64,000 nucleotides of DNA, taken from positions 1-64,000 of the forward strand of contig CALUKD010000007.1 in the NCBI GenBank assembly GCA_944321125.1, given 5' to 3'. The notes beneath the pieces were generated by a model, which was not told where the DNA came from, did not search any database, and was given only the letters and a program-made list of their open reading frames with translations. The DNA comes from Candidatus Butyricimonas faecavium. GTDB lineage: Bacteria; Bacteroidota; Bacteroidia; Bacteroidales; Marinifilaceae. The translations under genes were made by a program, and so were the position numbers. Positions 38,290-45,551 of this stretch are shown piece after piece (the stretch's first letter is position 1; each line of letters opens with the position of its first letter).

Positions 38290-40269
38290 ATGAAAAAAAT
38301 CACATTGTTAGGAAGTATCATTGTACTTCTATTATTTGCCTGTATGGTTAAAGCTCAGGATCGTAAGCCTTTTCACATCATTCCATTGGTGCCGGTTGTC
38401 GGGCAGGATGTGAAGTTCACGTATGATAACTCATTAACATCTCTGGCTGATGAGGAAACGATTTACGGAACGGTTTATTACTGGGAAAATTTGTGTTGGA
38501 AGGCAGAAGATTTGAAGTTGGTGAAGAATGATACGGCATGGGAGGCTATTTGTAGAGTACCAGAAAATTGTGCGTTATTATCATGTAAGTTTTATGCGGG
38601 GGACAAGAAGGATACAGGTGGACGTTCGACATATGCGACAATGACTTTTAATAAGAACGGGCAGAATTTACCAACAGCTTATATGGCGTGGGGAATGTTG
38701 CGCAACAAGACGTTGGAGTCTTTACCGGGATATTGTGAAGAGAATGCGTATATTGATGATGAGGTTATGCGTTATTGGCTGAATCAACAACTTATGAAAG
38801 ATCCGGGTGCTCGGAAGTATGTGTTCTACTATGCGGCAAAATTATTGAATAAAATGATGCCAGGAGAAAAACATGAACAAATGTTGGGTGACGTGGATTT
38901 TATATTGAATTTGCCGGATGCAGATGAAGCAACCTTGTTGAAAGCGTTGGAAGTCGCTAAGAATATTGTAAAAGACAGCACGAAAGCGGCAGCAGTAGAA
39001 AACCGGATTTTAAAAGATTACCCCAATGGGATTTTGGCTAGAGATCAAGAGATCTGGCGAATTTTCAGAATTATGGATGCTGATGCGAAAGCTTCGGAAT
39101 TGGAGGCTTTCTTAAAACGTTTTCCGACTGAAAAGTTTAAAGATATAGAAACCGAAACTTCTTCCATGTATTTGGGTAAAATTTTTCAGGCCGTTATTTA
39201 CCAGCCTATTATCAAGAAGAATGATTATAGCTTGTTGTATAAATATATTCATGATGTGCCTCATCTTCATTTGCAAACATTTTACTGGCATATGGTGCAA
39301 ATACCGTTGAGTACGAACCAGAGGACACCGGAACAGGTATTACCTTTTGCTAAAGTTATTTATAACGAGCTAATGACTCGTCCCCAAGTAGGTTCTGAGC
39401 GGATGTATTCCGATAGAGAGTGGAAGGATAATTTACTTACGAGGTGCAAAGATATGATTTTGAAACATGCGTTCGTGTTGGATGCTACCGGTTTTTCTGC
39501 CGAAGCGTTGGAGCTAATGGAAGAAATTAAAGGGAAGTATAATTTTAAATCGGCAGAATATAATAATCAATATGTTCGTTTGCTGGAAAAAAATGGTTAT
39601 CAGTCAATGGTCATTCCCACGATCGTGGCTAGTGTGCGAGAAGATGCGGTTACTCCCGAAATGTTGGAAATCCTGCGAAAAGACTATGTGAAACAGCACA
39701 AGAATGATAACGGTTTTGAGGTTTATGTCAGTTCATTGAAATCGAGGGAAAAACAACAAGAATTGCAAAAACATTTGCAGGAGACGATGATTAACAAAGA
39801 GATCGAACTTTTTGCCATGGAGGATCTAGACGGAAATAAGGTTGATCTTTCAAAGATGAAGGGGAAGATTATCGTGTTGGATTTTTGGGCAACTTGGTGT
39901 GCTCCTTGTAAGGCTTCTTTACCGGGGATGCAAATGGCGGTGAATAAGTACAAGAATGATCCGAACGTGGCATTTTTCTTTGTTTCTACAATGGAAACGG
40001 CGGCGAATTTTAAAGAACAGATTCGGAAATTTATGAAGGAGCATAACTACACGCTGAAAGTGCTTTGTGATAATGTTAATCCGAAAACGAAGAAACAATC
40101 TGCTGTTTATGATACTTATGCCAAGGCTTTTAAATTTTCCGGTATTCCTCACAAAATGATTATAGACGGGAATGGAAAATTGCGTTGGAGCATTAACGGT
40201 TATATGGGAAGTCCCTCGGCTTTGGCAGAGGAGATGAACCTTATGATTGAGATGTTGAAAGCGGAATAA
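38290..40269 (+). CDS. Exported TlpA-like thiol-disulfide oxidoreductase with long N-terminal domain
   Basis: A 659-residue exported protein with signal peptide (MKKITLLGSIIVLLLFACMVKAQ). The first 500 residues form an Ig-like start and a helical region not recognised beyond that. The C-terminal 140 residues are a TlpA/thioredoxin domain with active site WCAPCK (Cys537 and Cys540) and the segment IIDGNGKLRWSINGYMGS. It is likely periplasmic, reducing disulfides or resolving thiols. It is the last gene of the SusC/SusD locus, which implies the imported ligand or its binding protein involves cysteines. That link is inference. Confidence 0.88.
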   Translation: MKKITLLGSIIVLLLFACMVKAQDRKPFHIIPLVPVVGQDVKFTYDNSLTSLADEETIYGTVYYWENLCWKAEDLKLVKNDTAWEAICRVPENCALLSCKFYAGDKKDTGGRSTYATMTFNKNGQNLPTAYMAWGMLRNKTLESLPGYCEENAYIDDEVMRYWLNQQLMKDPGARKYVFYYAAKLLNKMMPGEKHEQMLGDVDFILNLPDADEATLLKALEVAKNIVKDSTKAAAVENRILKDYPNGILARDQEIWRIFRIMDADAKASELEAFLKRFPTEKFKDIETETSSMYLGKIFQAVIYQPIIKKNDYSLLYKYIHDVPHLHLQTFYWHMVQIPLSTNQRTPEQVLPFAKVIYNELMTRPQVGSERMYSDREWKDNLLTRCKDMILKHAFVLDATGFSAEALELMEEIKGKYNFKSAEYNNQYVRLLEKNGYQSMVIPTIVASVREDAVTPEMLEILRKDYVKQHKNDNGFEVYVSSLKSREKQQELQKHLQETMINKEIELFAMEDLDGNKVDLSKMKGKIIVLDFWATWCAPCKASLPGMQMAVNKYKNDPNVAFFFVSTMETAANFKEQIRKFMKEHNYTLKVLCDNVNPKTKKQSAVYDTYAKAFKFSGIPHKMIIDGNGKLRWSINGYMGSPSALAEEMNLMIEMLKAE

Positions 40270-43268: not shown

Positions 43269-43449
43269 TCATTTCTTTTTTGAGTGGTTTTCGAGAGCAA
43301 GATTTTTTATTTTTCTTTGGGAAATCTTTGAAATGTTGTTGGTTTCCTAGAGGAGCTTACCAACTTAATTTGAGAGTAATTGAGGAATTTTGAAGTGTTT
43401 TATGTTTTAATGTTAAATGCAGGCTGTGTTAGGTAAATAATTTTGTTCT
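43269..43449. other. Gene-free stretch upstream of the structured RNA
   Basis: This is part of a 641-nt gap (43207-43847) without a protein gene. I see only T-rich, low-complexity sequence here, with no clear repeat or open frame. The rest of the gap holds the RNA element (43487-43606), a small AAAACGTTTT palindrome at 43609-43618 and the tldD-like promoter. Confidence 0.5.
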
Positions 43450-43483
43450 TTTGTGGTTTATATTAAAGAAATATTTACTTTTG
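43450..43483 (+). promoter_or_regulatory. Promoter for the structured RNA (TTTG - 22 nt - TACTTTTG)
   Basis: TACTTTTG at 43476-43483 matches TAnnTTTG exactly. TTTG at 43450-43453 is 22 nt upstream, slightly longer than the usual 19-21. The start site would fall near 43488, so the RNA would begin inside its first helix. Confidence 0.6.
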
Positions 43484-43486
43484 TCT

Positions 43487-43606
43487 TGTCAATTCGAGAA
43501 ATAATAGAAAAGTGTATAGCACATGAAGGAATAAGCCTCCGGAAGTGTTATACACTTTTTTTATTAAATCCGAGTTGACATTCAATTTAATATCCGGAGG
43601 CTTTTT
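43487..43606 (+). ncRNA. Candidate structured RNA with nested helices and loop-tail pairing
   Basis: Three helices can be drawn on the plus strand. Helix A is 43487-43496 with 43571-43580 (10 bp). Helix B is 43506-43522 with 43545-43561 (17 bp), followed by a T-run (43556-43562) as in a terminator. Helix C pairs loop bases 43533-43543 (AAGCCTCCGGA) with 43593-43603 (11 bp, GC-rich), then TTTTT. B nests in A, and C crosses them as a pseudoknot or a competing state. G-U pairs in A (U93-G74) and B (G19-U48) work only for the plus-strand RNA. The loop also contains ATG AAG GAA TAA. With its own promoter 5', and the tldD-like gene having a separate promoter, it looks like an independent small RNA, though a leader switch cannot be excluded. 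Confidence 0.65.
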
Positions 43607-43748
43607 AGAAAACGTTTTTTGAGAGATATAGTTACATATAAATGTAATATTTTGAATTCTAATTTGTCGATGAGGGTGAGAGTACCGTGATGGGAAATCA
43701 TCCTTTTTTGCATTTCTTCACTTTAAGAAAAATTTAAAACGTTTGAGT

Positions 43749-43779
43749 TTTGCATCCATAAGGATTCGTCTTATATTTG
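43749..43779 (+). promoter_or_regulatory. Promoter of the TldD/TldE-like pair (TTTG - 19 nt - TATATTTG)
   Basis: TTTG at 43749-43752 and TATATTTG at 43772-43779 are separated by exactly 19 nt. This is the best-matched Bacteroidetes promoter in the window. The start codon is 68 nt downstream. Confidence 0.75.
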
Positions 43780-43847: not shown

Positions 43848-45551
43848 ATGAGAAAAACAGTATTGGTTATTTTTAGTTGCTTTCTCTCCCTGTTGTTTTT
43901 TCCTAAGGCTTACGGGCAAGGACAGGATAAGTTACTGGGACTTCTGAAAGAAGAATTGGCTCAACAGATGAAAGAACTAAAGGATGAAGAATTTCCCCCG
44001 TATCACATGAATTACAGGGTGATTGATGTGACTTCTTCCGTGGTGTCTGCTTCTTTCGGGGCGCTGATGAATAGTCAGCAATATCGTTCCCGGACGTTAG
44101 TCCCGCAGATTCGGTTAGGGAATGAAAAACTTGATAATTTTAGATTTAATCAAATGGGATCTGCTATGTCCCGGTTTCAAGGCCCTTCTGTGGCTCGTTT
44201 ACCTTTAGATGAAGAGAATAATGAAGATGCTGTTCGTCAAGCTATTTGGGATGAAGTGAACAATCGTTATAAGTTTGCCGTGGATATGTATCAAAAGACG
44301 AAAGCAGAAAGTTCTGTAAACGTGGAAGAGGAAGACAAGGCTCCTTATTTTTCAGAAGCGAAAGTAGAGAAGTATTATGAGGCTCCGCTCTCGGCTGAGA
44401 AAATGACGATTGATATGGATCAGTGGGCTGCCCGGATGAAAGAAATTTCAGCCGTGTTCAAAAACCAACCCGGGATTATGAAAGGGGATGCGATCATGAT
44501 TTACACAGTGGAGAGACGTTATTTCGTGAATAACGAGGGAACAGAGGTTGTACAGAATCTACCCTATGCCCGTATCATGGTATTTGGAGAGACAAAAGCC
44601 GATGATGGGATGGAATTGCCTTTGAATTTGTCTTATTTTGCCTATGATCCGGCTGATCTTCCCGCAAATGACGAAATTATTGCGGATACCAAGGAGATGG
44701 TGAAGACATTGGAGGCTTTACGTGTAGCTCCAGTGGTAGATCCGTATACAGGGCCGGCTTTACTCTCCGGTCCAGCCAGCGGTGTGTTTTTTCACGAAAT
44801 TTTCGGTCACCGGATTGAAGGACAGCGAATGAAGAGTGAGAATGACGGACAGACATTCAAGAAGATGATTGGTCAGTTAGTATTGCCGGCAGATATGCAC
44901 GTCTACGATGATCCGACTCTTCGGGAATATGCAGGAGAGGATTTGAATGGATTCTATAAATATGATGATCAAGGAGTAAAAGCAGAACGGGTGGACGTAG
45001 TTGTTAATGGTAAATTAAATGATTTCTTGATGACTCGTACTCCGATTGACGGTCATCCTCGTACCAACGGTCATGCTCGTGCCAGCGATGGATTCGATCC
45101 TGTTTCTCGTCAATCTAATCTGATAGTCGAAACTTCTAACCCGAAAACTCCGGAAGAATTACGTCAATTGTTGATTGAAGAAGTGAAAAAACAAGGTAAG
45201 GAATATGGTTATTTCTTTAAAGAAGTGACAAGTGGATTTACATTCACGGGTAAAGGTGGAACTAACTCTTTTAACGTGACCCCTCTGGAAGTGTATAAAG
45301 TTTTTGCTGATGGTCGTCCGGATCAATTGGTGCGTGGCGTTGATTTGATCGGAACTCCGCTTTCCATGTTTTCTAATATTATATATGCTGGAAATGATGC
45401 TCGTGTGTTCACGGGTATGTGTGGTGCAGAATCAGGTTCTATTCCTGTAACGGCTATTTCCCCGACTATTTTGGTGAATAAGGTGGAAACGCAAAGAAAA
45501 GCTAAATCTCAAGATATTTTACCGATTTTACCGGCTCCGGGAACGAAATAA
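43848..45551 (+). CDS. Exported TldD-like metalloprotease
   Basis: A 567-residue protein of the TldD/PmbA family. Unlike cytoplasmic E. coli TldD it has a signal peptide (MRKTVLVIFSCFLSLLFFPKAYG). The HExxxH zinc motif is HEIFGH, His316 to His321, in GVFFHEIFGHRIEGQ, so a catalytic subunit is expected. The C-terminal half has the family signatures TNGHARASDGFDP and GGTNSFNVTPLEVYKVFADGR. Known TldD acts with TldE to cut unfolded or modified peptides such as microcin leaders. The adjacent gene is the partner-like subunit without zinc motif. The site of action is probably the periplasm. Confidence 0.9.
   Translation: MRKTVLVIFSCFLSLLFFPKAYGQGQDKLLGLLKEELAQQMKELKDEEFPPYHMNYRVIDVTSSVVSASFGALMNSQQYRSRTLVPQIRLGNEKLDNFRFNQMGSAMSRFQGPSVARLPLDEENNEDAVRQAIWDEVNNRYKFAVDMYQKTKAESSVNVEEEDKAPYFSEAKVEKYYEAPLSAEKMTIDMDQWAARMKEISAVFKNQPGIMKGDAIMIYTVERRYFVNNEGTEVVQNLPYARIMVFGETKADDGMELPLNLSYFAYDPADLPANDEIIADTKEMVKTLEALRVAPVVDPYTGPALLSGPASGVFFHEIFGHRIEGQRMKSENDGQTFKKMIGQLVLPADMHVYDDPTLREYAGEDLNGFYKYDDQGVKAERVDVVVNGKLNDFLMTRTPIDGHPRTNGHARASDGFDPVSRQSNLIVETSNPKTPEELRQLLIEEVKKQGKEYGYFFKEVTSGFTFTGKGGTNSFNVTPLEVYKVFADGRPDQLVRGVDLIGTPLSMFSNIIYAGNDARVFTGMCGAESGSIPVTAISPTILVNKVETQRKAKSQDILPILPAPGTK

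Follow-up and report, generated by a model that had tools for sequence, protein, structure and literature searches.

In the window, by which we mean the whole 64,000-nucleotide stretch of Candidatus Butyricimonas faecavium DNA that was analysed, complementary segments upstream of a tldD-like gene (43848–45551, plus strand) can be read as a set of crossing RNA helices. The question that this locus raises is whether these segments form a leader of the neighbouring gene, a DNA-level repeat or an RNA gene in its own right. Comparison of sequences strongly supports their assignment to an undescribed family of structured RNA, because the first domain of this RNA recurs in about 100 viruses of Bacteroidota, usually back-to-back with a DNA-modification gene. 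We put the chances slightly above even that the locus is a stand-alone noncoding RNA gene with a double pseudoknot in domain 1, a link to phage DNA modification and a trans-acting, protein-binding product.

Architecture of the predicted RNA at the window locus

The predicted RNA is encoded on the plus strand and is composed of two domains. Domain 1 opens with the 5′ arm of helix A (43487–43496), which pairs with 43571–43580 and takes up the RNA 5′ end; because this helix begins a few nucleotides from the predicted start, the end would be captured and not free for pairing with mRNA. Helix B joins 43506–43522 to 43545–43561, and the loop of its hairpin contains the 5′ arm of helix C (43533–43543), whose 3′ arm (43593–43603) is followed by a T run. 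These three helices lie exactly where the preliminary description of this locus had placed them. Helix F, the fourth, had escaped notice there, as had the whole of domain 2. Helix F sits directly between the 3′ arms of B and C, with its 5′ arm (TATTAAAT) at 43562–43569 and its 3′ arm (ATTTAATA) at 43585–43592, the latter abutting the 3′ arm of C. The hairpin that F forms has the 3′ arm of helix A as its loop. The helix order is consequently A-B-C-B′-F-A′-F′-C′, in which helix C joins the loop of B to the 3′ tail and helix A joins the loop of F to the 5′ end. Immediately 5′ of C lies a conserved loop motif (GAAGGAAT, 43525–43532), whose form across the family is approximately RARGR-N(3-6).

Upstream of domain 1 we identified a -7 box of the TAnnTTTG type (TACTTTTG, 43476–43483) and a TTTTG at 43449–43453 that is a possible -33 element. 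The tldD-like gene, a neighbour outside the RNA, has its own box (TATATTTG, 43772–43779), so both promoters proposed earlier were confirmed. Domain 2 starts with hairpin D (GTTACAT, 43631–43637, and ATGTAAT, 43642–43648), which shows compensatory changes among the chromosomal copies, continues with a conserved A/U-rich single strand (TTTTGAATTCTAATTTGTC, 43650–43668) and closes with terminator hairpin E (GGGTGA/TCATCC followed by T6, 43674–43709), which has a conserved loop (CCGTGATGG, 43685–43693) and is the likely 3′ end of the transcript. Because the second domain and terminator E extend to 43709, the predicted transcript is most likely about 222 nt long (~43487–43709) and ends at E, beyond B and C, and not after 75 or 120 nt as had been suggested.

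The span 43487–43610 folds at -39.3 kcal/mol compared with -18.65 ± 2.9 for shuffled sequences (z = -7.1), and 0 of 200 shuffles were as good. When helix C of the window was considered alone, an equally long pairing appeared in 176 of 20,000 shuffles of the tail; across the whole family this helix is far beyond chance. The B loop of many members contains AAGGCnnnnGCCT, which would permit a small local hairpin in competition with the first C pairs, possibly a folding intermediate.

Copies in Butyricimonas and another genus

A plain DNA similarity search of the window's genome found one copy, and in four of the five other Butyricimonas genomes it found the tldD-locus copy at 96, 93, 86 and 86% identity; in phages and plasmids it found no homologue. 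The tldD-locus copies always lie upstream of the same tldD and are present in all five genomes with that orthologue, the sixth genome, G004, being without it. Among these five copies, one A/B pair has both members altered, from G-C to A-U, and a pair is lost in only one A/B cell. All five one-sided A/B changes in the genus result in G-U pairs on the plus strand. The arms are thus kept in relatives with compensatory changes, and the earlier observation that the G-U pairs fit only the plus strand holds across the genus. The three-codon frame that had been pointed out in the loop is unconserved: its ATG is AAG in one species and missing at other loci.

Because plain similarity yielded no more than the tldD copy, in four further species, covariance models were needed to go beyond it. 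A model built from the five Butyricimonas tldD copies (R1) adds copies in all six genomes of the genus, including one near cinA, one between trpB-like and pfk-like genes and others at two more places (gene names read from the proteins). The aligned copies are alike from the promoter through the terminator at window position 43709, that is, over domain 1, hairpin D, the single strand and E. The E loop reads CCGTGAYGG across them, and the E stems are compensatory (GGTGGG/CCCACC, GGCAGG/CCTGCC, GGAGGG/CCCTCC and AGCGGG/CCCGCT). A model of domain 2 (R2) detects this domain in each of the six Butyricimonas genomes, as well as in another genus (full copy L088 in genome G010), and adds a fourth copy in the window's genome. 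We saw 16 full copies at several unrelated loci in the six Butyricimonas genomes and the one other genus. In 16/16 of them the TAnnTTTG box ends 3–7 nt 5′ of helix A. The original proposal of a structured RNA with crossing helices and its own promoter was supported.

The four copies in the window's genome are located on C7 (the window), C9, C11 and C17, and the last is truncated; the idea of a repeat present many times accordingly failed. The C17 copy (L090) retains helix A (ATCCCACTC/GAGTGGGAT) but has a deletion of hairpin B and the C 5′ arm. Where every full chromosomal copy has CCGGAGGC as the 3′ arm of C, L090 has CTGCAGGC; its domain 2 is intact and its E stem compensated (GGAGGG/CCCTCC). 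Decay of this arm after loss of its partner is what pairing in C predicts (n = 1).

These copies bear on two alternative readings of the locus. An attenuator or leader of tldD would agree with the position of the RNA upstream of tldD in all five genomes having the orthologue, but we consider it very improbable and largely refuted: tldD has its own promoter, terminator E intervenes, and at the other loci the downstream genes differ (tldD, cinA, trpB/pfk and others), on which grounds any cis leader or attenuator was rejected. The tie to TldD/TldE is one of vertical linkage at one of several loci. A DNA-level element, such as a repeat, a transposon end or a cruciform, would account for the long inverted repeats; it is scarcely credible, being refuted by the strand asymmetry of the G-U pairs, which fit one strand only, and opposed by the fixed promoters and the lack of a dispersed repeat. 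The occurrence of copies at unrelated loci with their own promoter and terminator supports the earlier suggestion of a trans-acting RNA, for which we infer a function that is probably protein-directed. The genes nearest the window copy contain no phage domains.

Several smaller observations were made in these genomes. At G004:C1:1417463 (L095) we identified a relic of the cinA-locus copy in which terminator E alone survives. The CCGTGAYGG loop with a T run is also found in other terminator-like Butyricimonas hairpins (G000:C4:122995, G000:C23:32443 and others; L101, L089), a recurrence that may mark the E loop as a terminator motif common to several hairpins; the pattern has 11–27 matches per genome versus 0–4 for a reversed control, with overlaps and coding DNA counted. 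Each Butyricimonas genome (G000 and relatives) encodes two to six close tldD paralogues, several of which may serve different peptide substrates.

Members of the family in phages

A C-arm pattern search of viral contigs returned eight contigs. Two of these (L270 and L274) are real members with the complete domain-1 architecture adjoining a phage Dam gene, and five are apparent chance matches in coding DNA. The remaining one, L271, is uncertain: its minus strand (1247–1322) shows the same crossing plan (GATGAGCCTAG/CTAGGCTCATC and GCCTCCGGT/ACCGGAGGC, with a T run) in an otherwise dissimilar sequence, which could be a distant member or chance. When the phage Dam gene was collected in viral contigs (80 loci), the RNA was found divergent to dam in about 30. 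A gene-blind search with a pattern for helix B of one sub-family matched 97 viral contigs, 80 of which were examined further; in Bacteroidia the same pattern occurs in 1 of 395 genomes, at two places, and the one inspected has a Dam gene start divergent to it. Domain 1 was found in about 100 viral contigs, including Winogradskyella phage Peternella, and 78 of the 80 gene-blind contigs have a TAnnTTTG box no more than 60 nt upstream of helix B. Domain 2 was absent from the phage contigs searched. The viral pattern GGCCGTGAYGGTNACC proved to be a common, uninformative sequence and was reused as a control set, and L103 was rejected as an ordinary GCCTTCGG terminator with a chance-level match. A sequence-only full-length profile gave only chance-level matches outside the family among 295 genomes of the order.

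A helix descriptor recovered A, B and C in 15/15 chromosomal copies (the window and 14 others) and in 26 of 28 phage sequences, one of them (L325) in the wrong register; L322 and L358 were overlooked by the descriptor, yet have a significant C by the shuffle test. Eight sequences (L298, L301, L304, L316, L345, L346, L349 and L356) were delimited by this descriptor. In comparisons of C with shuffles, ≤2 of 200 were as good in 22 phage sequences, and 0 of 200 in all 15 chromosomal copies tested. Canonical pairing was then scored in 60 non-redundant phage sequences against 200 shuffles and against slid registers. It reached 89.4% for helix A (shuffle mean 74.5%, maximum 77.8%), 97.0% for B (shuffle maximum 85.6%), 98.1% for C (92.2%) and 68.3% for F (56.7%), the value for F being low partly because its variable-length arms align poorly in columns; scored per sequence, F has a phage mean of 18.0 versus 9.1 when shuffled. 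Slid registers of all four helices gave lower pairing than the true ones. Of 66 sequences in which C was read on both strands, 62 gave the longer pairing on the plus strand and 1 on the minus strand. The arm sequences have turned over almost completely with the pairing of A, B, C and F retained, and the family conforms to a descriptor comprising the TAnnTTTG box, the eight arms in the order given above and the RARGR loop motif before C.

Relationship of the bacterial and phage forms

Model R1, which contains Butyricimonas sequences only, reaches phage members (best 41.4 bits, E 1.7e-6) and matches more than half of the 80 gene-blind contigs at E ≤ 10. At the same threshold it finds nothing in 675 kb of unrelated viral contigs and, at E ≤ 0.01 per genome, nothing in 294 other Bacteroidales genomes. 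Because the R1 scores, weak to moderate for phages, partly reward any long hairpin, the strongest argument for kinship is the shared promoter, helix order, loop motif, C arms and T run. The loop sequences are also close, as in the window (ATGAAGGAATAAGCCTCCGG) and L294 (ATGAAGGTCTTGGCCTCCGG). We consider the two forms probably homologous on the basis of their common architecture, the loop motif and the model scores. As the phage contigs searched yielded no domain 2, the phage and bacterial roles may differ.

Probable coexistence of the helices

In the window, A+B amounts to -31.9 kcal/mol (about -39 with extensions), C+F to -19.9 and C to -17.7. Coexistence is favoured because, on these energies, A+B would not give way to C+F at equilibrium but could accommodate C in addition. 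In most phage members A, B, C and F use separate nucleotides, so that all four could form in one molecule. We favour a double pseudoknot in which these helices would coexist and hold both RNA ends. The competing view, a two-state switch between A+B and C+F that would make C, with its T run, a regulated terminator, draws on the nesting of F within C, which it abuts, and on the T run behind C in most phage copies. We hold such a switch improbable, since in the window C+F falls short of A+B by ~12 kcal/mol, the phage helices are mostly on separate nucleotides and all compatible, and no constant same-direction gene lies behind C in the phage contigs. A kinetic switch between helix states is possible. 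The attenuator first envisaged, with C competing against a terminator B, does not agree with the presence of a separate terminator at unrelated loci or with the far lower stability of C+F. Nor do most phage members have a long T run after B, as they do after C.

Comparison with known RNAs

Rfam 15 at gathering cut-offs gave 0 matches in the whole window and 0 in ten phage loci, in agreement with the first reading, which had recognised no named family. Matches by E-value were far below cut-off and mostly generic microRNA hairpins; mir-2804 and others were rejected as hairpin look-alikes. The same applies to RT-14 RNA (RF02921), which scored 23.0 bits against a cut-off of 48.1 (E 0.57), and no reverse transcriptase domain is found in the seven ORFs nearest the RNA. 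The 6S RNA model (6S-Flavo, RF01685) had no match in the window or the ten phage loci, and GibS scored at best 19.4 against a cut-off of 115. The RNA resembles FopS/GibS in being a multi-copy intergenic RNA gene of a gut Bacteroidales genus with a sigma-ABfr-type promoter and its own terminator (PMC11697453). However, FopS consists of a single-stranded 5′ R1 seed and a terminator hairpin (PMC11697453), whereas here the 5′ end would lie in a helix and the core would be a double pseudoknot. STAXI RNAs also feature pseudoknots near antirestriction and DNA-handling genes, but their pseudoknot is repeated two or three times and they belong to Enterobacteriales (PMC2864571); the present RNA has no such Rfam match. 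The Rfam scans of the window and ten phage loci likewise returned no match to GOLLD. That RNA is found in phages as well as bacteria and is several times longer than the present one. The likeness lies in being a conserved noncoding RNA without a known partner (GOLLD being an ornate RNA, PMC12286853). We found no counterpart described in Rfam 15 or in the published open-access papers searched. What we regard as new is the RNA family itself; that phages carry structured RNAs is already known.

Phage genomic context and proposed function

A divergent ORF lies near the RNA in 73 of the 80 gene-blind contigs, and in 70 of these 73 scorable contigs it is of DNA-modification type: a single-linkage methyltransferase cluster accounts for 57, another 12 are ABC-ATPase/GNAT proteins, which were assigned to DNA modification only by position and by a GNAT domain scoring below the Pfam cut-off, and one is Mom. 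The distance from the RNA to the divergent gene is 30–170 nt. In Peternella, the RNA is on the minus strand and occupies the gap 38618–38754, with gp61 on one side and the methyltransferase gene gp62 on the other; this member of the Winoviridae is Mu-like and has a MuA transposase (PMC8776804). The setting recalls the mom locus of Mu, and one contig here carries Mom itself beside the RNA. In a Mu-type genome the mom locus forms a DNA-modification cassette of its own at the right end, controlled by proteins and Dam methylation, and we know of no comparable RNA there.

The constant divergent position could mean that the phage RNA is a cis regulator of the modification gene and that the bacterial copies are drifting relics. 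We hold this reading improbable, given that the bacterial copies lack such a neighbour yet show compensatory changes across loci and species, and that interference in cis would not require such a structure. Conservation of structure over sequence, captured ends and the company of modification genes fit a protein-binding RNA acting in trans, for which roles in anti-restriction, defence or lysogeny control were considered. The helices and their conservation, the promoters, the phage association and the genomic positions can be read from the sequences; the function goes beyond them. We propose that in Mu-like and related Bacteroidota phages domain 1, which lies divergent from a modification-type gene in a mom-like position, would be an independent transcription unit producing a long-lived RNA that acts in trans, binds a protein and is part of an anti-restriction or lysogeny cassette. 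In Butyricimonas, where domain 2 supplies a hairpin, the conserved single strand and the terminator, a resident RNA may function through its accessible GAAGG loop and the E loop. A more tentative version, to which we give well under even chances, is that a new class of knotted phage RNA, lying beside the modification gene in the anti-restriction cassette of Mu-like Bacteroidota phages, inhibits a host defence factor or serves as a decoy for it, and that Butyricimonas adopted this RNA, joined it to a second domain and increased its copy number.

Pairing with RNA is just as conceivable for the GAAGG loop as binding of a protein. If so, the loop, with the A/U-rich strand or the E loop, would be the mRNA seed of a base-pairing small RNA and the pseudoknots would merely stabilise it, as the conserved loop motif and domain-2 single strand would allow; multi-copy Bacteroides families that repress susC-type mRNAs do exist (FopS, PMC11697453). 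We nevertheless consider this, the main rival reading, unlikely, because the 5′ end is shut in helix A, the structure is kept far more strictly than a seed requires and the phage copies in the contigs searched are without domain 2. The invariable position next to DNA-modification genes hints at an RNA component of phage anti-restriction, and an RNA with both ends captured would be common to marine and other Bacteroidota phages and a gut genus. The loop-tail double-pseudoknot topology would also give RNA structural studies a new object of small size.

Two groups of divergent phage proteins are of interest in themselves. In L449 and its cluster, a DNA-methyltransferase-like N-terminus is fused to a thymidylate-synthase domain, and this protein is possibly a DNA hypermodification enzyme. 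In L395 and 11 other contigs, the mom-like position is occupied by an ABC-ATPase and GNAT-like protein (phrog_11143), which is a candidate new DNA-modification protein.
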